This document shows, piece after piece, positions 3,001 to 23,718 of a DNA stretch of 29,845 bases; the stretch's first letter is position 1, and each line of letters opens with the position of its first letter. Source of the DNA: a virus. The position numbers and the translations under genes were made by a program. The notes under the pieces are model-generated. The model saw nothing but the letters and a program-made list of their open reading frames with translations. It was not told where the DNA came from and did not search any database. Location: positions 1 through 29,845 of IMG/VR virus record IMGVR_UViG_3300028581_000170; one strand, 5' to 3'.

Positions 3001-4535
3001 CCAACTGGAACAAGTGCTAATTTAAGATCTTCAACACTCTTTTTAAATTTATTCATTGCAGAATCTGCTGTCATTCCTAATTCTTGTTCTGATAAAGAAG
3101 ATAACTCCTCTACTGATGAATTTGCTAAATCAAGAACACGTGCTGCTTGATTTCCATCTTTTGCTACGTTGGCAAATAAAGTTGACAAACGTGCAAATTG
3201 AAATTTACCAAACATTTGCTCAATAGCCTGTGCCCTATTTAATGGGTCTAGTTGATTAAGGGCTGTTGCAAATTCTATTACAGTTGCTTTAAGATCGCCC
3301 TTGTTTTTTGTTACAATCTCTCTAGCATTAATTCCAAATTGAGCCAGCATTTCAGATGCTTTGCCTGTTGGATTAATTAATGCAGCAAGTCCAGACTTAA
3401 GAGCGTTGGCACCTTCTGATGCATTAATTCCACCTTCTTTCATTGCTGCAATAAAGAATGTTAAGTCTTTTACATCTCCACCCAATTGCTGTATTACTGG
3501 TGCAACTTTTGGAATTGCGGTTGTAATATCATCAAGAGATACAACCGTTTGGTTTTCTACTGCGTTAAGAAAATTAATAGAATCTGCAAGTTTATCTGAA
3601 GACATTCCAAAAGCATTTTGCAATGAAATAGTAGTTTCCAATGCTTTTTGATTATCAATTTGACCAAGAACTGAAAGACGTGTTGCTTCTGTTGTTTGGC
3701 GCTGTAAGTCTACTCCTTGAAAACCTGCTGCTGCTGCTTCTGCTGCCAATCCTACAGTTGCAGAAACAGAAATTCCATATTTTGTAAATTGCTTTCCAAG
3801 TTCTGTAATATTATCTAATGCTGCTTGAGTCTCAGCCTTTGGTGTAAACAAGTCTCCATAAACTTTTTTAAATTTAAGTGCTTGTGCTTCCATATCCATA
3901 AAAGTTTTTATAGCAGTTGAGCCAACAATAGATAGTGGAATTGTAAAACCAACCATAAGTTGGCGTCCAGCCCACTGTGTGTTTTTACCAAAGTTAAGTA
4001 GGTTTGTAGAGCCCTGTTTCATTAACTGATTAAAGAGTGCTTGTTTTTGGGCTGCTATGGCTGTTTTTGTGCCATAGTCTTGCATGTTGAGGCTGGTAGG
4101 TCTAACAGCAATTGCTTCCATTGCCCCACTAGCATTACGACCCATTTTAATATATTGAGTTTGTAATGTTTTAACACGTTCTTCTGCTACTTTTCCAATT
4201 GTGTCAAACTCTGACTTAAACAATCTTCCAAATGTTTTAGTTGATGCCCCAGCATAGCGGAAATACTCCCGCATTGAAAATTTATTTTTTTCTAAAGAAT
4301 TTGTAAAAGATTCTGCACTTGTTCTTACGGTTCTTAGTTCTGCAGAAAATGCACCAATAGAATTGATACTGCCAAGTAGGTTTTTTTGCAGAGACCTTTG
4401 AGCAAGTGCTGCTGATTCACTAGACCTAGAAATAGAAGAGTGAAACTGAGATATTTGTCTTTGTAAAGCCTTTAACTGTGTTAATGCTGCAGACGTATCT
4501 ATATTTACGCCAATATTAGCATTAACATCAGCCAT
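1..4535 (-). CDS. Tail tape measure protein (3' end beyond the window)
   Basis: This reading frame is open from an ATG at 4535 to the left edge, about 1511 residues, and has no stop inside the window, so the protein is longer. An AGAAGG ribosome site lies about 8 bases upstream. Residues about 200-420 resemble the TP901/PhageMin_Tail core (for example the stretch around VQ..GGDVKDLTFFIAAMKEGG). A hydrophobic segment lies near residues 535-568 and another near 1200-1230, as is usual for tape measure proteins that interact with the host membrane. Near residue 670 is the GPGGPTSDSVP..ASNGEAI motif, common in tape measure proteins of many siphophages. Alanine- and glutamine-rich helical stretches fill the rest. 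It follows the two tail chaperones, the standard position. The tape measure sets tail length and is packed inside the tail tube. The family call is secure; total length is unknown. Confidence 0.95.
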   Translation of the reverse strand, partial: MADVNANIGVNIDTSAALTQLKALQRQISQFHSSISRSSESAALAQRSLQKNLLGSINSIGAFSAELRTVRTSAESFTNSLEKNKFSMREYFRYAGASTKTFGRLFKSEFDTIGKVAEERVKTLQTQYIKMGRNASGAMEAIAVRPTSLNMQDYGTKTAIAAQKQALFNQLMKQGSTNLLNFGKNTQWAGRQLMVGFTIPLSIVGSTAIKTFMDMEAQALKFKKVYGDLFTPKAETQAALDNITELGKQFTKYGISVSATVGLAAEAAAAGFQGVDLQRQTTEATRLSVLGQIDNQKALETTISLQNAFGMSSDKLADSINFLNAVENQTVVSLDDITTAIPKVAPVIQQLGGDVKDLTFFIAAMKEGGINASEGANALKSGLAALINPTGKASEMLAQFGINAREIVTKNKGDLKATVIEFATALNQLDPLNRAQAIEQMFGKFQFARLSTLFANVAKDGNQAARVLDLANSSVEELSSLSEQELGMTADSAMNKFKKSVEDLKLALVPVGKSFLEAATPIVEFVAGVLEKFDNLSDGSKKLITFLTVGIGAIGPIFLMTFGLIANAIANGLKGVMLLRQGYLKLTGQSQVLEEQTQYLNTEQLEAAAVAHSLDQSHAKLTQSFTAETAALQKLIAAYQGATRAGQSFMLNNPGMMMPGRGGKKFAQGGIISGPGGPTSDSVPVMASNGEAIISAKTVKKYPGIIEGLISGNIPGFKKTGIVGKTIGTVLGGAFTQRQFSPAAMMAPGNTSGGFGMDPEWLKLNEQAKASFASALKTAGMAKAGMIQTSDNYNNFWQGLNPVLDGIFNIFKGGISDKITTVAQLGEKQYPQMAQHIQDLVQNSQISAEQAEQLSVALRKLVAPLSSDRTQKDIKRIELGLNEAGETVVKRASYERSGETLKRQTVKNFPRELSQRGLPIPSNMEEFSFAHIPQASSESTYVEPYLRKKAGAGSAAEQKVLAELKKGASFKEGQVVAEAAIEGAKQGAASASPSKKTIPIGQDIARGLEVGMANRQKSVAAAGTKLANSAVDATRSAKATQSYERLYGAGNPIDATDKSIRRNLQKQLLLSQVGPNIAMSPQISEGVKTTATNIKSMNDRLKSFDRGLMSSSFAISSLAGIASMSGGRLGDLSGIIFKVTTAMFALQAVTSLLTQSGMLRLATERGLNVGLLTTIAGTNKTRIATGLFSGGILKLLPNLLSFGKMIVRFLGPVGLVIGGLITLKGVVDLVNKAREKERLAIEGVGKAANITEGQLKKLGEIYGFVPTKNKFSINPTVGGVVGQQRTQVEETKQLFKDDKEFQNNVKTLKNASVKEANLIFNTMALRLLGSGATQEAIQNIIIALQEEAGRTELKFNFKNIDLNTKEGKDNFKKSIDDVVNTFSTDFAKGINSKKSLSMASNVLAADLESIKGQLGNATIDAKTFAESFDLISLKIKEMNNPAALVLLNETLKTMNSELPASVGKLKDINDKMLILQALAIGLKIEAKQIDALNAGGAAANAVRGEILKLIT

Positions 4536-14079: not shown

Positions 14080-17000
14080 TTACAGGGCTAAGGCTGTATT
14101 TGTTGACCAAGTAATGTTTTGATATATTTTAACTTTGTCGGAGTCTATAGTTAATCCATTATCATCGTCAAATATTATTTTATTAGTTCCTATATATGTC
14201 TTATAAACGTCTGATGGATTTATGCCATATAAATCTGATAATCCTATTATCAGGGCACTTCCCCAATTATAGTTATTATTATAGTATGACCAGTCAAAAT
14301 CTACTGATTCATTATTTTTTACCATATTCCAAGACCTTGTTGTGGTTTTTTGAACTTGTTGCAAATTGTTTGCTTGATAATAAGATATATTATTAAATAA
14401 CGCTTTACCATTTAAATTAATAGAGCCTAGGAAGTTTCCAAAATCTAAAGAAGATTTAAAGGATATTCCAAGAGACCCCCACTCTTTAGATGTTATCACT
14501 GGCTCTTTAACTGGAATACCGTTCCAGTAATAAACTATATTGTTTAAAAATGTATTAGATGACACGCTTTTTGCAAAAATTCTTGCTCTAAGTCCAAAAT
14601 CACTATCTGCTACTGAATAAAATTTTACAATGTCATCTTTGTAAACAATTTCAAATAACTCTGTTGGAATGCTTGAAAATTTATTTTCAGGATATCTTAT
14701 CCACATTTGAACCGCACTTATTAAATAATCTGAAGACAATGATTCATTTATTGGAAATGAAATCCCACGACTTTGTAATGACAATATATCTCCAAGAACT
14801 TGTATTCCAGAGTTTTTAGTTAAATACAAATATGGAGTGCTACCCTTATAAATTGCAAAAGGATTTTTAGATTTATAATCATAATATATTCCAGATTTTT
14901 TATATGGAAATAAATTTACTCCAAACCTTGTTCCAATTGGATTAAAGGAGTTGTCATTAAAAGCCTGAGATGCAAATTCCAAACTACGCACAATTGCTGG
15001 TCTATTTAATATTCCACGTACATTAAACTCTAAATGATATACAATTGCTAATTTATTAAAGTCAACAGTTTTCGTTGGGTATATTATTGAATTATTTATT
15101 ATTTCAAACTTTGTATTTTGCCAATCTGGATATTTGTCAATATCGATAATGGAGTTATCTAATACTGGCTGAGTTATTGTAAAATTACTATCTAATAGAT
15201 TAGCGCCATCTTCTATATATTGAAATGTCAAATAACTTTTTATAACGGAATTAGTTGTATCGTATTTGTATAACTTTATAGAGTTCTCTTTGGCATCTTG
15301 ATAGTCATTCCAATTAGTCTTTAACTGATTATCAAAATCATAATATGTCTTTTGAACTGGGTTAGAATAAGTATTGTATAATTCTTCATACGTCCATGAA
15401 GATATTGTCTCTTCTTCAATTAAATTTGTTGGTGATGGAATTGAAATATTAAATTGTAAAAAATCTAAATCGTAGAATTGGTCTCCAGAACTATCTGTTA
15501 CATATTGACCAAAATATGATAATGGCATATAGTCTTCCCAAGATCCAGAAATTCCAATATCTAGAAAATAAAGACCATAAGATTCAATAGGTAGAAGGGT
15601 ATAACTTGATAAATTTTCAATTAATCCAATTGCATTTTCTTCTTCAATTACCCCACTTATAGATAAATCATCAAATATTGCAATTCCATTATTATTAAAA
15701 TAGTTAATAATTTTTAATAAATTTTTTGTTGTTGAAAATCCTACAGAATAAATTCTTCCTAAAAATGTACCAGATAAGGAACCATCCCCTGCAACATAAA
15801 CTTTAAGGTAATTGCGATTCCCAAAAAATGCAGAAACATTGCCACCAAACGAATCTGCCAACAACGTTAAGTTTACTCCAGCAGAAAACAATTGATGCTC
15901 TTCAATTATTGAAGACGTGTATATCTCTTCCTCTATGCCATTATAATATAGTTTATACGATATAACATTGTTTTCTTGCTTAACTATAAAATAGTTATTA
16001 TTTAATTCATTATATATTTTAAAAAGAACTTGTTCTGAATCAAGGTTGTTATTACTAAAAACTCCATAAAACGCATCCACTTGACTATTTAAAATATTAA
16101 AAGTATTAAAATTAAAATAACATGTTTTAGTATTCCAAGTATTATTTGGTCTAAATGTAATAAAGTTATAGTTATTAACTGGTCCAGACTCTTCGTTTTG
16201 AATTTGTTTGTTATCGCTATACAAACTAACAATTGATTTATCAGATGTATAAATGTTTGGAAGTTTATATTCTGGAGTTCTTAATGTATTTTCTGTTGTA
16301 GTTAAATTATCAAAAGATCCTTGCTGCCACTCGGCAAAATTTGGATAATTATAATTTGATGTATAGTCGGCAAACGAATAATCAATAAATGCCGATGTTC
16401 CCCCATATGCTGAATTTATTCCTTCTGGAGAAACAACTCCCTGACCATAAACAAATCTTCTTTTTGCAACATTTAATGGGACCTGATAAGAGTAAATAGC
16501 AACACAATCCAACTCAACTGGAAGTATATCGTCATAAGAATAAAAGCCCAGCCAGTCTTGATTTTTTCCAAATTCATTATATTGTTCTGGTAATTCTAAG
16601 TTATTTGTTTCAATGTTTAAAGATATGACTTCTTCTCCATTTAAAATTAATGTTGCAGAATTTTTAATTAATCTAATTTGTATAAGCATAGGCCTAAACC
16701 ATTCACCAACAAAATGCGATGCAAAAATTTTTCCTATCTTTAATGTTAAAAAACCACTATCTACGTATAGCCCATCATCAGAAGATATCGGTCCAAATAT
16801 TTTTTTAGGTATTTCTGAATTTGAATTAATCCTTGTCCAAAACTCTACTGTATATTCTTTGTGTTGACCAACCTTATTTAAAAAGCCTTTTCCTGGAACA
16901 ATTAATGAAGGCTCGTCTAGTGGGTTTGGATTTAATGTAGTGGCGTTTGATGCTCCATATACTAATGGAATTCCTGTATTTTTTGCTAACAACTTATTAT

Positions 17001-17721
17001 CAACTACCAAGTAGTAAGCGGTGTCTGCTGATATTCCATATGCTGGTGACTCTACACCACTTAATGTGTTTAATGCAATACCTTCTGGCATTAGCGATAA
17101 GTTTAAACCTAAAGACTGAAAGTTAAACTCTTCTGACCATTGACCAACGGTTATTCCATTTAAATAATAAAGATAGTCATTGGGTGTTGATCCACCTTGA
17201 TTAGATGTTATTTTTATCACTACTCTAAAATTTGTATTTTCATTTACAATTTCAGATGTTTTAGAAACAAATATCCAAGAGTTTTTATCTTCTACATTTA
17301 TTTCATAAGTTTTTAATTTTTCAACTACAGTTGATGTCGTTGTATCTGTATACTGAAATCCAATATCGACAGACTTTATATATTCACTATCAATATATAT
17401 ATGGCTACCAACACAAAATGTACCAAGGCTTGAATTTAAATCTGTAAAATTTATTATATCTGGACTGACACAAACTATGTCTGTTGTTTCAGATATCGGA
17501 ACATTTCCTTCTAGTTTATTTAAATCTATATTTGTAAATGGTGCATTCTTATCCAGTGTTTCTAAAGAGGTAGATCCTCCAGTTACTAACCAGGATTCAC
17601 CCATATTCTGATAGTCTGTGTCTATTAAATTTATATAGTCCACTGCCCCGTCTAATGCCCACAAGGCTATTGGGTGTTCAGCAAATATCTTTTCTGCATA
17701 TAAATTTGATGGGTTAGACAT
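14080..17721 (-). CDS. Very large virion-type protein with LamG-like domain
   Basis: A 1213-residue, Asn/Ser/Tyr/Ile-rich protein with few basic residues. It opens with NLYAEKIFAEHPIALWALD, a start I associate with large structural proteins of actinobacterial phages. Residues about 280-430 look like a laminin-G/concanavalin-type jelly roll: EYTVEFWTRIN, a LTLKIGK strand, LIKNSATLILNGEEVISLNI, then LDCVAIYSYQVPL. Further beta-rich repeats of the same kind follow (for example near YQVPLNVAKRRFVYG and the C-terminal WGSLGISFKSSLDFGNFLGSI with LNGKALF). Such domains usually bind sugars, so a receptor-binding or virion surface role is likely. It has an extended -10 promoter and an AGGAG ribosome site, and sits unusually between the B12 cassette and the head genes rather than with the tail tip genes. 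Confidence 0.75.
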   Translation of the reverse strand: MSNPSNLYAEKIFAEHPIALWALDGAVDYINLIDTDYQNMGESWLVTGGSTSLETLDKNAPFTNIDLNKLEGNVPISETTDIVCVSPDIINFTDLNSSLGTFCVGSHIYIDSEYIKSVDIGFQYTDTTTSTVVEKLKTYEINVEDKNSWIFVSKTSEIVNENTNFRVVIKITSNQGGSTPNDYLYYLNGITVGQWSEEFNFQSLGLNLSLMPEGIALNTLSGVESPAYGISADTAYYLVVDNKLLAKNTGIPLVYGASNATTLNPNPLDEPSLIVPGKGFLNKVGQHKEYTVEFWTRINSNSEIPKKIFGPISSDDGLYVDSGFLTLKIGKIFASHFVGEWFRPMLIQIRLIKNSATLILNGEEVISLNIETNNLELPEQYNEFGKNQDWLGFYSYDDILPVELDCVAIYSYQVPLNVAKRRFVYGQGVVSPEGINSAYGGTSAFIDYSFADYTSNYNYPNFAEWQQGSFDNLTTTENTLRTPEYKLPNIYTSDKSIVSLYSDNKQIQNEESGPVNNYNFITFRPNNTWNTKTCYFNFNTFNILNSQVDAFYGVFSNNNLDSEQVLFKIYNELNNNYFIVKQENNVISYKLYYNGIEEEIYTSSIIEEHQLFSAGVNLTLLADSFGGNVSAFFGNRNYLKVYVAGDGSLSGTFLGRIYSVGFSTTKNLLKIINYFNNNGIAIFDDLSISGVIEEENAIGLIENLSSYTLLPIESYGLYFLDIGISGSWEDYMPLSYFGQYVTDSSGDQFYDLDFLQFNISIPSPTNLIEEETISSWTYEELYNTYSNPVQKTYYDFDNQLKTNWNDYQDAKENSIKLYKYDTTNSVIKSYLTFQYIEDGANLLDSNFTITQPVLDNSIIDIDKYPDWQNTKFEIINNSIIYPTKTVDFNKLAIVYHLEFNVRGILNRPAIVRSLEFASQAFNDNSFNPIGTRFGVNLFPYKKSGIYYDYKSKNPFAIYKGSTPYLYLTKNSGIQVLGDILSLQSRGISFPINESLSSDYLISAVQMWIRYPENKFSSIPTELFEIVYKDDIVKFYSVADSDFGLRARIFAKSVSSNTFLNNIVYYWNGIPVKEPVITSKEWGSLGISFKSSLDFGNFLGSINLNGKALFNNISYYQANNLQQVQKTTTRSWNMVKNNESVDFDWSYYNNNYNWGSALIIGLSDLYGINPSDVYKTYIGTNKIIFDDDNGLTIDSDKVKIYQNITWSTNTALAL

Positions 17722-17756: not shown

Positions 17757-18251
17757 TTAATTTCTAGGAATCCACAACTTTTCGTTACCCTTATTATGAT
17801 ATCTTGCCATAACAAAAAGTAGGTCCGAAAGCCTGTTTAGATATTTTGGAATATTTATATTTAATCCATCTACCTTCCAAACCTCACGTTCTGCCCTTCT
17901 AACGATAGTCCTTGCATTATGAAGAGGTCCTGTAGGCAAAACAAAAGAATGAAGTGGCTCTAGATGCTCATTATAATCATCAATTATATTTTCTAAATAA
18001 GTAATTCTTTCTTCTGATATTGTTATTGTTGGAGCGCCAGAGAGTTCTGCACCTAAGTCAAATAGGTCACTCTGTATTCTGTCTATAATGTCATTATGAT
18101 ATTCCGTCGCCATTCCAATAGCAGAGTTAGCCTCATCTACTGATCCAATTGCTTCAATCAAAAAACTGCTCTTATCTATTCTTTCATTGGTAGCGGTAGA
18201 GGTTTTTCCGTCATCACCAGTTTTTGTATATATACGAGTTAGATGAACCAT
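17757..18251 (-). CDS. Cob(I)alamin adenosyltransferase, PduO type
   Basis: A 164-residue protein with all the PduO-family landmarks: RIYTKTGDDGKTS (residues 6-18, ATP-binding loop), GSVDEANSAIG (36-46), FVLPTG (103-108), RTIVRRAERE (114-123) and YLNRLSDLLFVMARY (137-151). The enzyme transfers the adenosyl group of ATP to cob(I)alamin to make coenzyme B12. Length is slightly below the usual 180-200 because the C-terminal tail is short, but no core motif is missing. The ATG shares one base with the stop codon of the 54-residue gene before it (TAATG). It is the last gene of an operon starting with a B12-dependent ribonucleotide reductase, so it very likely supplies that enzyme's cofactor. An unusual gene for a phage. 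Confidence 0.92.
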   Translation of the reverse strand: MVHLTRIYTKTGDDGKTSTATNERIDKSSFLIEAIGSVDEANSAIGMATEYHNDIIDRIQSDLFDLGAELSGAPTITISEERITYLENIIDDYNEHLEPLHSFVLPTGPLHNARTIVRRAEREVWKVDGLNINIPKYLNRLSDLLFVMARYHNKGNEKLWIPRN

Positions 18252-18415
18252 TAGTGTCCTGTCAAAGAGCGCCAGATATCGATTGTAATTTTATTGGCCA
18301 CATGAAGTGCAGCCAAATTAATGACCAGTTGCAATAGATATTGTATAGTCTTTGGTTTACGCTTTTGTATTGGAAATTGGATAACATTATCCAAATGTTT
18401 ATAGGCTAGTTTCAT
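18251..18415 (-). CDS. Overlooked 54-residue protein in the B12 cassette
   Basis: A short frame fills exactly the gap between the DUF4430 gene and the adenosyltransferase gene. Its ATG overlaps the preceding stop in ATGA, and its TAA overlaps the next ATG in TAATG, so it is coupled on both sides and the operon has no untranslated spacer here. The protein starts MKLAYKHLDNVIQFPIQKRK, is basic in the N-terminal half, and then has an amphipathic to hydrophobic helix (IQYLLQLVINLAALHVA, residues 25-40) before WRSLTGH. I do not recognise a family. The helix is short for a membrane span but could lie on a membrane or bind a partner. Confidence 0.7.
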   Translation of the reverse strand: MKLAYKHLDNVIQFPIQKRKPKTIQYLLQLVINLAALHVANKITIDIWRSLTGH

Positions 18416-18864
18416 GGAAATATAACATTTCCGTTATCTGCAAAAACTAAACCAATAGAATCTCCTGGGCTTAAGAATTGTTGATCAACTGCTAACTGTC
18501 CCCAACCCCACTCTTTTCTAGGAAAAGGAATTGTTTGTTTTTCTTTAATGATTATTGCCCAATATGCTTTTTCTGATGGCATTGTGTCACAAGACTCTAC
18601 CTTTGCATTTGGCAAACCATTAACTCTACATACAACCGATAGACCATATTTCTTAGTGCCTTCTATTTTAAGGTTTGCTTTCTTTAAAACATCTAAAGCA
18701 ATTGCTTTTCCAGATACCTCTATACATTTTGTTGATTTTGTTCCACCATCTAATGGGCCATAATTAATATAAAGATTAACACAACTTTCATCTGGTTTAT
18801 TTATAATTGAAAAACCACCAAGAACTAGCCCAGCAGTTATAGCCAACGTTAATATCTTTTTCAT
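18412..18864 (-). CDS. Exported DUF4430 / transcobalamin-C-like protein
   Basis: A 150-residue protein with an N-terminal signal peptide (KK, then a hydrophobic stretch to about residue 20) and no lipobox, so it would be secreted or remain anchored. The rest matches the plan of DUF4430, a domain related to the C-terminal part of transcobalamin: a first strand VNLYINYG, IALDVLKKA (the 'aldvL' helix), YGLSVVCRVNGLP, SCD, YWAIIIK (101-107), WGWG (119-122) and a final LSPGDSIGLVF. Four cysteines (28, 47, 79, 92) could form two disulfides. It has an AAGGGGGA ribosome site 9 bases behind the B12-dependent reductase gene. In bacteria such domains occur near cobalamin transporters, so a role in B12 capture is inferred; direct ligand binding cannot be shown here. 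Confidence 0.65.
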   Translation of the reverse strand: MKKILTLAITAGLVLGGFSIINKPDESCVNLYINYGPLDGGTKSTKCIEVSGKAIALDVLKKANLKIEGTKKYGLSVVCRVNGLPNAKVESCDTMPSEKAYWAIIIKEKQTIPFPRKEWGWGQLAVDQQFLSPGDSIGLVFADNGNVIFP

Positions 18865-18873
18865 TTTTCCCCC

Positions 18874-20904
18874 TTAGTAAAGTTTAATTTCACAGGCATC
18901 TGTACTGCAATAAGCCTCACCCTGTGCCTCTAGGTTTTCTACTCCATCATAAATTGCGGACCAATCAATCTTTGCAATTTTTCCAACATAAGAGTTATAT
19001 TCTTCTTTTGTAATATTATTATATGGTTGTTGAGGGAATGTTTCATTACCCATTGGCAAAAATGAAACAGCCTTCAATTCTCCTTCATAAAGATGAAGCG
19101 CTGGAGCAACATGTTTTTTTTCTGTTTCCTTATCAAAAGATAGGGTTACAGAAACCCCATTATCAGACCAATATTTTTGAGCGGTTGCTGCCAAACCAAT
19201 TTTTTCAAAAAGACTTACATCTTTTTCAGAACGTGGATGTCCAGATGCTACTGGGAAATATACTACTGAGGTGTTAGCAGAAACTAAGTCTGCTTCAACT
19301 TTATACCCTGCTGCTTTAAATAAATGAAGCATTGGGTCTGTATTTCCAAACCTTATAGCACGTAAATAAAATTCTCCTCCTGGACCCCAATGAACTCCTG
19401 GTGTTGCACCAGATAATAATGATACAGATCCTGAAGGTTTGACGGTAGTTACACGAATTGATTCACGTACACATAGCCATTCTGAGTATGAGTGATCATA
19501 CTGACGAATCCTCTTATACCCTTCGTCCATCCACTTACGAAGTGCTGGCATTCCTTTTGTATCAGCAAAGGATGCAATACCAGTTAGAGATGTTCCAATG
19601 CGACGATTGCGTTGCATAATTCCATTTGTGGTTTGCCAATGTGTTGGCATAAGAGTAACAGTCTTACCGTATAAATATGCAAACTTTAATGTACGAAGAA
19701 AATCTTCTCTATCATCATGACGATTTAGATGAACCTCTACTAATGTACATAATTCGTAAGATTCTAATGGTTGTTCTGCACATGGATTAAAACCCATTAC
19801 ACGATAGTCTTTCCCGTCTGGTGCATCTGCTAGTCTTCCGTAATTACGAGCAACATCTAGCCAAATAAATCCTGGCTCTCCGTTGTCTGCAATTAAATCA
19901 ACATAATCTTCATAGTTTGTTCCAACCTCTGCAGCAATAGAGTTGTTAGACATCCAAGCCCATCCTGGATTTTTTGGATCATAAGAGTTACGTTCTGGAA
20001 AAACCTCTGCATTTTTTAAATTACTAAAATCTTTATCTTCAGGATTACCTAAAGCGAGGGTAGCAGAACGACGAACATTACCAGAAACAACACATGTACC
20101 AATAAGGTTTACAATATCTACTATTGCACGAGAATCAAATTTATCCCCTGCTCTAGATCCTACAATCTTTGTGATACGGTTATGTAAATCTATTAATGGT
20201 TCTGGACCACTGGCTACCCCGCCAAAACCCTTGATGGGTGCCCCCAAAGGCCTAATAAGGTCATATGTGAACTGTTGTATGGGTTGGTTTGGGCGAAGGT
20301 ATGAGTTTATTAATAACCTTACAGATTCAACCCAGCCTTCTCTAGTATCAGGAATTTCATATATTGATGGTGGCTCAGTTGGATCATAAATTACCATTTC
20401 TTTTTCTTGTCCAAGAGTATCAAACCCTACACCTATACCCAACATTAATGCATCCATTACCCAAGAAAATAGGGCGCCAGGATCATTGCGGTCAATATCA
20501 CGAGTAGATACCATCGCACAATTTTGTAGGGAAGCAGAGTTGCGCTTGTCCGTAGTCATAGGAGTTCCAAAAGCCCATAAGCCACGACCAGGAGGTGTCC
20601 ACTTTAAGTTAAATAGACGATCATATGCTTCTTGAGCAGACTTTTGTCCTTTGTTGTCGTTCCAAGGCAGACGATTTTCTTTTGCCCAGTTTTTTTGAAC
20701 TGAATACATACCCTCAATTACACGTTTACAAACCTCATACCACCTTTCTTTTGTACCATCTTCTTTCATACGTGAATAAGTGCGTATAAAGGTTACCTCA
20801 CCAAGAGAGTTTGATCCAGCATCTGAGAATCCAAATGGAGGTGGAGTGTCTTTGTATTTTGCTACGAAGTCTTCTAGTAAACGAAAAGAAAAAATATCTG
20901 ACAT
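18874..20904 (-). CDS. nrdJ: Adenosylcobalamin-dependent ribonucleotide reductase (class II)
   Basis: A 676-residue enzyme of the monomeric class II type (Lactobacillus leichmannii RTPR-like, which has about 740 residues). Visible catalytic parts: GRGLWAFGTP (107-114), Cys129 in SLQNCAMVS, the NPCAEQPLE loop with Asn373, Cys375 (thiyl radical site) and Glu377, Cys386 as partner of Cys129, the PSGSVSLLSGATPG phosphate loop (490-503), and the C-terminal Cys666/Cys671 pair that relays electrons from thioredoxin. It reduces ribonucleotides (triphosphates in the RTPR type) to deoxyribonucleotides without oxygen, using adenosylcobalamin. It heads a four-gene operon ending in a cobalamin adenosyltransferase. 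The ATG follows a leader of about 55 bases with a weak ribosome site. All active site residues are present, so it should be functional. Confidence 0.95.
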   Translation of the reverse strand: MSDIFSFRLLEDFVAKYKDTPPPFGFSDAGSNSLGEVTFIRTYSRMKEDGTKERWYEVCKRVIEGMYSVQKNWAKENRLPWNDNKGQKSAQEAYDRLFNLKWTPPGRGLWAFGTPMTTDKRNSASLQNCAMVSTRDIDRNDPGALFSWVMDALMLGIGVGFDTLGQEKEMVIYDPTEPPSIYEIPDTREGWVESVRLLINSYLRPNQPIQQFTYDLIRPLGAPIKGFGGVASGPEPLIDLHNRITKIVGSRAGDKFDSRAIVDIVNLIGTCVVSGNVRRSATLALGNPEDKDFSNLKNAEVFPERNSYDPKNPGWAWMSNNSIAAEVGTNYEDYVDLIADNGEPGFIWLDVARNYGRLADAPDGKDYRVMGFNPCAEQPLESYELCTLVEVHLNRHDDREDFLRTLKFAYLYGKTVTLMPTHWQTTNGIMQRNRRIGTSLTGIASFADTKGMPALRKWMDEGYKRIRQYDHSYSEWLCVRESIRVTTVKPSGSVSLLSGATPGVHWGPGGEFYLRAIRFGNTDPMLHLFKAAGYKVEADLVSANTSVVYFPVASGHPRSEKDVSLFEKIGLAATAQKYWSDNGVSVTLSFDKETEKKHVAPALHLYEGELKAVSFLPMGNETFPQQPYNNITKEEYNSYVGKIAKIDWSAIYDGVENLEAQGEAYCSTDACEIKLY

Positions 20905-21816: not shown

Positions 21817-22440
21817 TTATTTTTTTAATGTATAACATACATTTAAAACACATCTAAACTGTTTTGTATTTGTTGTGTAGTTTGAGTGAAACTGATGTCC
21901 ATTAAACCTTATTGCTTTTCCTGCTTTTGGGGAAACACTTTTTATAATTTCTGGATTATCCATATTATCACCAAGCCACTTATTATAAAAAACGGTATCT
22001 CCATCAACATTATGAAGATAATACAAAAACACATCATGTTTTATAATTGTATCAACATGAGCATAGTGCAATGAATTGTCATTATCCATGCCAGTGATTG
22101 CTATTCTAGACCTTAAAATTTTGTCATATTTTATATTGTGTTTATTACAAAATTTATCAAAAATATCTTTAAAATCTTTTAGTTCTAAATCACCTAAAAC
22201 CATAAAAAATGGTTTTGAATCTTGGTCGTTAAATGCTAAAGGGGTTTCAGTATATGGGAAAACTCCTTTTTGGCTGTCTTTAATAATTTCAAGACCATTT
22301 GTAACCCTCCATTTAGGCAATGGGGTTTCTTTGTGTCCATTATTTCTAAATATTTTATTAATAAAATCGTGTTGATCTTCTAGTGTTAAAAAATTATCAT
22401 CTTCTATAATGTAATCTTCTGATTTGTTTAATTCTTCCAT
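21817..22440 (-). CDS. 2-oxoglutarate/Fe(II) oxygenase-like protein
   Basis: A 207-residue protein with a jelly-roll oxygenase C-terminal half. Iron ligands: His128 and Asp130 in YAHVDT, and a distal His (His185, or His182) in RFNGHQFHSN; Arg196 in QFRCVLN is placed to hold 2-oxoglutarate. The strands between (HDVFLYYLHNVDGDTVFYNK) are typical of the double-stranded beta helix. Enzymes of this kind hydroxylate proteins, sugars, lipids or nucleotides using oxygen and 2-oxoglutarate. The ATG has an AAAAAGGAG ribosome site, and a TATAAT box (22456-22461) overlaps the end of the gene before, so a weak internal promoter is possible. It differs strongly from the other oxygenases in the island. Substrate unknown. 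Confidence 0.78.
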   Translation of the reverse strand: MEELNKSEDYIIEDDNFLTLEDQHDFINKIFRNNGHKETPLPKWRVTNGLEIIKDSQKGVFPYTETPLAFNDQDSKPFFMVLGDLELKDFKDIFDKFCNKHNIKYDKILRSRIAITGMDNDNSLHYAHVDTIIKHDVFLYYLHNVDGDTVFYNKWLGDNMDNPEIIKSVSPKAGKAIRFNGHQFHSNYTTNTKQFRCVLNVCYTLKK

Positions 22441-22463
22441 TTTTTCTCCTTTTTAATTATACA

Positions 22464-23138
22464 CTATTCTTGACCAGTTGAAGATCTTGCAAAATCTAAA
22501 GGTACGTTATGATACCAATTTGGCAGTGCATACCTTGGACCTTTTGTTATTGGATGAACTTCATGAATATATAAAAAGTTAGATGGAAAAAATAATACAC
22601 TTCCTGGCTCTGGTTTAATTTTAATATTTGACTGTCTAAACTCTAACTCTCCACCTTCATAGTCATTGTTTAAATAAAGCAAAACAGATAAAACTCTTGT
22701 GCTAACCCCTTGATCTTGATGTGCTGGTAAATGTCCAGAATAATCATATCTTAATAAGTGCATATTGCTTTCTCTTGATTTAATATTTTTTTCTGCCCAT
22801 GGATATAACTCTGTTGAGTAGTGAGTTAATGTACTTTCTAGTGCCCCAAACAATTGAGAAGAGATGTTTGTTTGTTCTTTTTTATAAACATCGGTTTCTT
22901 GTATATCTTTTACTTGTGGAATAAATTTTTGTAAACAAAATGTTTCTTTGTTTCCACTTTCGTTTTTCCAAGGAGTCCATGGCCTTACTGAAGTTTCAGA
23001 AGAAGAAATTTTTTCCTCACTCAATCTTTTATCTAAGAATTCAATTTCTGATATCAGTATTTCTGGATTTTTTATTATATTTTTATAATAAACTAAGCCC
23101 AAATCTAAAACTTCAAAATCAACTTTATTTGAATTCAT
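22464..23138 (-). CDS. Prolyl-4-hydroxylase-type 2OG/Fe(II) oxygenase
   Basis: A 224-residue protein that is the most canonical oxygenase of the island. Its C-terminal half reads as a P4H-type domain: His140 and Asp142 in PAHQDQG, then VLSVLLYLNNDYEGGELEF, IKPEPGSVLFFPS, and His192 in YIHEVHPITKGPRY with Arg202 binding 2-oxoglutarate. All three iron ligands and the Arg are present, so it should be active. The ATG at 23138 overlaps the preceding gene by 14 bases; an earlier in-frame ATG at 23195 would give a 71-base overlap and has no ribosome site. P4H-like enzymes hydroxylate proline or other residues in proteins; in phages the targets are generally unknown. Confidence 0.85.
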   Translation of the reverse strand: MNSNKVDFEVLDLGLVYYKNIIKNPEILISEIEFLDKRLSEEKISSSETSVRPWTPWKNESGNKETFCLQKFIPQVKDIQETDVYKKEQTNISSQLFGALESTLTHYSTELYPWAEKNIKSRESNMHLLRYDYSGHLPAHQDQGVSTRVLSVLLYLNNDYEGGELEFRQSNIKIKPEPGSVLFFPSNFLYIHEVHPITKGPRYALPNWYHNVPLDFARSSTGQE

Positions 23139-23718
23139 GATGTTGCGCTTCCCATCTTGGATATTTATCTTCTCCAAGAAAGTCTGGATCTGCATTAGTT
23201 GGAATGCTAGTGTGCATATATAAAGCAGTGTACCTGTGTCCCGCTGTGACTTCGGTTATTCCATGTATATACTCTGATCCAGCACTTGGAAAAAATACTG
23301 CAGAATATTGTTTTGGTTGATACTCAAATCTTTGATTTGGGAAATAAATTTTTCCTCCAGTATATTCAGATTCGTGGTTTAGATACATGATTGTGCTCCA
23401 CTCAATAAAAGGTTCTGGATCTTGTGCGTCTAAATGTAATGCACCCTTCGTTCCCGCTGTCCAGTGTGATCCAAAGGCTTTAAATGTGTATATCGGATTA
23501 ATAAATCCGTTTAACTCTTTGTGCTTTTGGTTTGCAAGGATAGAGTATTTTTTTAATATATTCATGACAATATTGTTGTATGGCAGCGAAGTACCCCCAT
23601 ATCTACCCTTATAGTATTCTGGATAAGGGTTTACTTCAGATGGAAAATTTTGTTCTTTAATTAATACTTCTGCATCTTCTTTTTCTATAAAGTTTTCTAC
23701 TATATTAATTCTATGCAT
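23125..23718 (-). CDS. 2OG/Fe(II) oxygenase, P4H-like
   Basis: A 197-residue protein with a complete 2OG/Fe(II) motif set: His95 and Asp97 in ALHLDAQD, STIMYLNHESEYTGGKIYF (GG turn before a strand), a FFPS strand, His152 in YIHGITEV and Arg162 in GHRYTALYMH. It resembles the following gene (22464-23138) in the order and spacing of these motifs, so the two are probably distant paralogs within one family. A TAGGTG ribosome site precedes the ATG. Its target is unknown; the place next to a glycosyltransferase-like gene suggests a protein or glycan target. Confidence 0.85.
   Translation of the reverse strand: MHRINIVENFIEKEDAEVLIKEQNFPSEVNPYPEYYKGRYGGTSLPYNNIVMNILKKYSILANQKHKELNGFINPIYTFKAFGSHWTAGTKGALHLDAQDPEPFIEWSTIMYLNHESEYTGGKIYFPNQRFEYQPKQYSAVFFPSAGSEYIHGITEVTAGHRYTALYMHTSIPTNADPDFLGEDKYPRWEAQHHEFK

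Follow-up and report, generated by a model that had tools for sequence, protein, structure and literature searches.

Why would a bacteriophage carry, directly behind a B12-dependent reductase, a set of genes laid out like a bacterial B12 salvage operon? The question arises from virus record IMGVR_UViG_3300028581_000170, whose 29,845 bases (here, the window) include portal, head protease, and head genes. At positions 20904-17757, with all open reading frames (ORFs) on the minus strand, lies a cassette of four genes: nrdJ, encoding a reductase that depends on adenosylcobalamin (AdoCbl); a gene for a 150-amino-acid (aa) protein; a gene for a 54-aa miniprotein; and pduO, encoding an adenosyltransferase. 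We think it likely that the cassette combines an optional, host-derived B12-capture pair with an activating enzyme, and that together they raise the supply of AdoCbl to the phage's own reductase.

The cassette and its viral relatives

The first gene, nrdJ (18874..20904, minus strand), encodes a 676-aa monomeric class II ribonucleoside-triphosphate reductase (RTPR). It scored 358.1 bits against TIGR02505 (curated cutoff, 340.05) and matched phrog_367 with an E value of 4e-141. Alignment with the Lactobacillus leichmannii RTPR (1L1L) places C129, C375, C386, C666, and C671 at the catalytic positions, including those of the redox-active and thiyl-radical cysteines. At the other end of the cassette, the 164-aa PduO-type ATP:cob(I)alamin adenosyltransferase (17757..18251, minus strand) scored 149 bits against TIGR00636 (cutoff, 108) and 159 bits against PF01923 (cutoff, 24). 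It contains the TKTGDDG, VDEANS, ARTIVRRAER, and NRLSDLLF motifs, and its best PDB match is the Mycobacterium tuberculosis adenosyltransferase 2g2d (E, 9e-33). A first-pass annotation of the window had called these genes a class II reductase and a complete PduO-type adenosyltransferase, and the family scores, aligned cysteines, and motifs argue for both names. At the level of sequence, roles in the use (RTPR) and the activation (PduO) of the cofactor are supported.

Between the two enzymes lie the genes for the 150-aa protein (18412..18864, minus strand) and the 54-aa protein (18251..18415, minus strand). In cassette order, the junctions are a 9-base gap, an ATGA overlap, and a TAATG overlap, and these, like the ORF positions, are as the first-pass annotation had read them. 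That annotation also proposed a search for the gene set in other phages and held that the idea would fail if the set were missing from all relatives. Searches of IMG/VR with the 150-aa protein returned 51 relatives and those with PduO returned 238, of which the best 80 were kept, and 54 distinct viral sequences carry all four genes. The order is identical in all 54, as is the overlap of the pduO start with the stop of the 54-aa gene. This arrangement is conserved beyond chance. Median pairwise ratios of nonsynonymous to synonymous substitution rates (dN/dS) were 0.055 for PduO, 0.09 for nrdJ, 0.25 for the 150-aa protein, and 0.28 for the 54-aa protein; purifying selection acts on all four genes.

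Ten PduO loci that lack a 150-aa gene start within the cassette, and in six further loci (L117 and L119 to L123, of which L120 is short) PduO is present with no cassette genes nearby. In L117, L119, and L121 to L123, a close PduO (80 to 87%) stands among other replication-type genes, without nrdJ. The 150-aa protein was absent from 50,697 isolated-phage records; PduO matches among such records were distant, mostly in unannotated records, and possibly host derived. By nrdJ, the closest isolate is Actinomycetia phage DSL-LC01 (60.5%). The literature searched yielded no description of a phage B12-capture set. Within the window, no B12 riboswitch was found; at 21817-23718, three adjacent genes have PHROG or Pfam matches of the 2-oxoglutarate-Fe(II) oxygenase type.

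The two small proteins and their cellular relatives

We annotate the 150-aa protein, on the basis of its predicted fold and cellular gene context, as a transcobalamin beta-domain/DUF4430-like protein and a candidate corrinoid-capture protein. It has an N-terminal hydrophobic segment with no lipobox, and its four cysteines (28, 47, 79, and 92) are kept across the phage proteins and the acI-like actinobacterial proteins described below, a pattern compatible with an exported protein that contains disulfides. Two AlphaFold2 models, built from alignments of differing depth, had predicted local distance difference test (pLDDT) scores of 75 and 85. When the pLDDT-85 model was compared with the PDB by Foldseek, the top 12 matches were 3u7z and transcobalamins only (probability, 0.99 to 1.00), and the 13th match had a probability of 0.33. 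Template modeling scores (by target) of 0.68 to 0.71 to 3u7z, with an E value of 3.5e-3, indicate fold similarity, and the model from the shallower alignment gave the same leading matches. The structure 3u7z, which we take to be that of a DUF4430 protein, is described in the PDB as a putative metal-binding protein. Transcobalamin-like domains are themselves members of the soluble-ligand-binding beta-grasp (SLBB) superfamily (PMC1796856). PDB sequence searches with the 150-aa and 54-aa proteins gave nothing useful, and the window 150-aa protein had no match to the SCO2322 family (NF040672), for which its homologue from Aurantimicrobium scored 21.1 bits against a cutoff of 85.

Gene neighborhoods in cells provide a second line of evidence. 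A scan of named genomes covering 84,980 species identified 40 relatives of the 150-aa protein, all in actinobacteria, and every one of the 40 is encoded just upstream of an EcfT-type gene, in an energy-coupling factor (ECF) transporter locus. For 38 of these loci, a gene resembling an S component could be placed as well; the other two (L125 and L131) are short contigs. The EcfT-type gene carries ATP-binding cassette (ABC) ATPase domains in L126, L128, and L134 and has a CbiQ-like start in L126. Moreover, a metH-like gene adjoins the operon in 4 of 10 loci examined closely (Aurantimicrobium L126 and L130, MWH-Ta3 L134, and Agromyces Root81 L137), with a family search confirming MetH for L126 alone. 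These four loci, with an ECF-type transporter and a transcobalamin-like exoprotein beside metH, encode a putative B12 importer of Microbacteriaceae; PduO was absent from two checked Microbacteriaceae genomes that have such a locus.

A wider search of 395 genomes from the actinobacterial class recovered a protein of the 150-aa type in 70. The form closest to that of the phage occurs in three single-contig genomes of 1.16 to 1.24 Mb and in three more of the same order, with G+C contents of 0.41 to 0.44; genome size and base composition suggest an acI/Nanopelagicales affiliation. Phage and cellular 150-aa proteins share a common ancestry. A tree groups the phage proteins in a single clade whose sister group is the acI-like forms (including those of the G162 order), with a joint support of 100/99. 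Cellular proteins of this type retain an insert that is missing from the phage forms, and therefore transfer from cell to phage is the simplest direction.

We annotate the product of the second small gene as a single-helix membrane miniprotein from its conservation, its dN/dS, and its acI-like counterparts. Searches of Pfam, NCBIfam, and PHROGs with the 54-aa protein gave no useful match. Its relatives are 44 to 54 aa long with one hydrophobic helix, and in phages the C terminus IDIWRSLTGH is nearly invariant. In five of the six acI-like genomes, an ORF of 53 to 56 aa begins 8 bases downstream of the 150-aa-type gene and ends in WRxWGGH(Y) or similar. A profile of the phage 54-aa protein ranks three acI-like miniproteins 1, 2, and 5 among 101 small transmembrane-like host ORFs, and the phage and acI-like profiles align end to end (hhalign P, 0.0019). 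The two are likely homologous; the sequence signal taken by itself is weak, and the case is made jointly by position, length, topology, and motif. Because the closest acI-like relatives of the 150-aa gene are followed by a protein that resembles the phage miniprotein, the pair was probably taken from the host lineage. An origin of the miniprotein from the first EcfT helix (YRxVFGG versus WRSLTGH) was also considered and dropped after profile comparison (P, 0.24).

As for that host, 5 of the 11 records of cassette phages checked for WhiB encode it, which supports an actinobacterium; the nearest isolate by nrdJ infects one too, and the capture pair and one type of PduO are closest to a single actinobacterial order. 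Within the putative host order, 101 of 121 genomes have an AdoCbl-dependent ribonucleotide reductase (RNR) above the cutoff, and acI-B is a predicted AdoCbl auxotroph (PMC5574706). The cassette phages probably infect freshwater actinobacteria, and their host likely both uses and scavenges B12.

A lactobacillal precedent and the proposed function

The arrangement of the cassette has a precedent in lactobacilli. Lactobacillus delbrueckii has an nrdJ-cbrS-cbrT-pduO cluster, and ECF-CbrT is a proven B12 importer (PMC5997447). A plasmid record of L. intestinalis contains, in this order and almost overlapping at the junctions, nrdJ, a DUF4430 gene, an ECF S component gene, and pduO; the DUF4430 protein matches PF14478, and the S component matches CbrT (6fnp) with an E value of 6e-63. 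In other plasmid records, L. reuteri has nrdJ, DUF4430, an insertion sequence element, and pduO; L. plantarum Lp900 has nrdJ, pduO, DUF4430, and the S component; and in L. plantarum MF1298 a hypothetical gene lies between nrdJ and pduO. In L. rhamnosus, a DUF4430 protein adjoins rtpR, and the same proteome table lists an "additional lipoprotein component of putative cobalamin ECF transporter" (PMC9963975). The phage genes are thus arranged as in a B12 salvage operon, except that a one-helix miniprotein occupies the position of CbrT. In our analysis, this precedent, which the first-pass annotation did not cite, strengthens an interpretation that is partly supported.

Could the likeness be a coincidence of independent B12 clusterings, with the phage set working by PduO-driven AdoCbl dosage alone? 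The putative hosts already encode AdoCbl-dependent RNR and PduO, and exoprotein profiles from phages and actinobacteria align only weakly with those from lactobacilli (P, 2.7e-4). Nevertheless, the two sets match position for position over four genes, one of them for a membrane component, and independent cellular evidence ties the 150-aa family to ECF loci. We therefore consider coincidence very unlikely. A capture role for the 150-aa protein is supported indirectly from several sides, namely, the predicted fold, the EcfT context in 40 of 40 loci, and the lactobacillal order with CbrT.

A number of observations weigh against this reading or limit its reach. The first-pass annotation related the 150-aa protein to DUF4430 and transcobalamin; predicted structure and a weak profile match point the same way, but Pfam DUF4430 (PF14478) had no match at an E value of ≤10 for the window protein and 17 relatives, and the 150-aa protein matched nothing in Pfam, NCBIfam, or PHROGs. 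The Foldseek E values of the leading matches range from 3e-3 to 4e-2, and so the fold match is good but not overwhelming. B12 is a putative substrate of the actinobacterial ECF transporters, and no cobalamin riboswitch was found at nine of their loci. The host of the window phage is likewise putative. In the putative host order, a relative of the 150-aa protein occurs in 6 of 121 genomes and PduO in 115 of 121, such that these hosts usually have PduO already, and an S component of the Aurantimicrobium type was not found in three acI-like genomes checked.

The cassette is also far from universal in phages. In a census of the best-scoring nrdJ loci with enough downstream sequence, which is not a random sample, 72 close nrdJ relatives comprised 20 with the full set, 1 without PduO, 3 with the small gene only, and 48 with none; among the best relatives of a second type of RTPR (the L314 type), the cassette was absent in 62 of 62. 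Directly after pduO, the window has a gene for a 1,213-aa protein (14080..17721, minus strand), and in the cassette-free loci examined its homologue directly follows nrdJ, leaving an empty site. From the census and the empty sites, we conclude that the cassette is optional cargo. The use-plus-activate-plus-capture set described by the first-pass annotation is thus real in 54 sequences and not general, with 48 of 72 close nrdJ relatives lacking it, which also rules out the idea that every phage with a close nrdJ needs the cassette. Three loci (L325:3305-3466, L330:5069-5230, and L334:2071-2232) have a 53-aa relative as the only cassette gene after nrdJ, the 150-aa and PduO genes both being absent, and therefore this protein may act with a host partner.

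Such partial sets bear on whether only PduO and RTPR matter, with the pair serving another ligand or being a passenger acquired with the region. The putative status of B12 as the ECF ligand, the diverse ligands of the wider superfamily (PMC1796856), the 53-aa gene kept alone in three phages, and the cassettes that lack PduO would all suit this explanation. Yet the pair stays behind nrdJ where PduO is missing (L313, L316, L317, L320, and L323), transcobalamin is among the leading fold matches, both small genes are under purifying selection, and the order is that of the lactobacillal CbrT operon; we judge the explanation unlikely. We think it quite unlikely, too, that the pair acts in superinfection exclusion, as a surface moron that occupies or blocks a host B12-uptake complex serving competing phages as a receptor, its adjacency to nrdJ being historical. 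B12 receptors can serve as phage receptors, as BtuB does, and a predicted membrane-anchored exoprotein with a one-helix protein, inserted optionally and evolving faster than PduO and nrdJ, has the right look. Against it, the pair occurs behind two different AdoCbl-dependent RTPR types, usually with PduO (the second type, 28% identical, carries it in L314, L315, and L320), lactobacilli share the order in a nonviral salvage operon, and a block on uptake would deprive the phage reductase of B12.

PduO itself has a mixed history. In a quick tree, the main phage PduO clade is a long separate branch, and the PduO proteins of the L018, L025, and L051 cassettes are nested within the host-order clade, evidence from sequence that PduO was acquired at least twice, from two sources. 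In L304, an ORF resembling the S-adenosylmethionine decarboxylase SpeD (3397-3777; 47.7 bits, below the cutoff of 75.65) directly follows a long-type PduO gene, and in L311 and L312 a WhiB-type gene is inserted between nrdJ and the 150-aa gene (PF02467 confirmed in L311).

For the favored reading, a capture pair and PduO feeding the phage reductase, we infer the ligand, localization, partner importer, delivery, and host. During infection, the phage RTPR would act as a new AdoCbl sink. Anchored on the outer side of the membrane through an N-terminal helix, the 150-aa protein would bind a corrinoid through its transcobalamin beta-domain-like fold and pass it to the host B12 import machinery, to which the 54-aa protein may couple it as a membrane partner; PduO would then adenosylate the imported cobalamin, yielding AdoCbl for the reductase. 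With no recognized transporter in the cassette, the pair must act through a host uptake system. PduO and RNR are usually encoded by the host already, so that the phage copy of PduO would bring dosage and timing and not an absent step. The first-pass annotation went too far in proposing that the set would give the phage control of its B12 supply. More tentatively, and with somewhat less than even confidence, we suggest a virus-encoded vitamin-uptake enhancer in which a host-captured exoprotein and the WRSLTGH miniprotein reprogram the B12 importer, with the miniprotein either replacing an ECF S component in minimal form or serving as its adaptor, in an import route used by acI-like actinobacteria as well.

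Comparison with known systems

Among the closest known systems is the lactobacillal nrdJ-cbrS-cbrT-pduO cluster. The phage cassette shares its gene order and tight junctions and, apparently, its sequence of RTPR, DUF4430-type exoprotein, membrane component, and PduO, the exoprotein position being assigned by predicted fold and not by Pfam. The third position differs, with a 54-aa, one-helix protein in place of the 174-aa CbrT, and the phage exoprotein has neither a lipobox nor a Pfam DUF4430 match; the phage-borne version also has no ECF module in the cassette. The order shared with B12-scavenging lactobacilli suggests that the virus increases the B12 available to it while infecting.

At the level of the domain, the C-terminal (beta) domain of transcobalamin, of the SLBB superfamily, is jointly with 3u7z the best predicted fold match, with an identity of 11 to 16%. 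The actinobacterial loci of Aurantimicrobium, Cryobacterium, and Agromyces, with the exoprotein followed by EcfT-EcfA-EcfA' and the S component, resemble the cassette in a homologous exoprotein (29 to 41% identity) encoded just ahead of membrane components, with metH beside some. They differ in being cellular transporter operons, in an exoprotein that often has a lipobox-like cysteine, and in having no RNR or PduO in the operons examined. The acI-like pair (G162, G132, G235, G481, and G453), sister of the phage clade, has the same two genes in the same order, of the same sizes, and with no lipobox, but keeps the insert, has an 8-bp gap where the phage genes overlap, and has neither RNR nor PduO beside it in the three loci examined. 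The cassette points to an unrecognized uptake pair in acI-like freshwater actinobacteria, in which B12 transport is poorly known.

Finally, RTPR-bearing viruses are common in plankton, and the phage class II RTPR genes of mycobacteriophages and virioplankton belong to the same reductase family as the window nrdJ; for those viruses, regulation of host B12 uptake has been suggested and not shown (PMC10547690). Where enhanced uptake is only a suggestion there, the cassette offers concrete candidate genes for viral regulation of B12 uptake, tied by gene order to a proven bacterial B12 import cluster.

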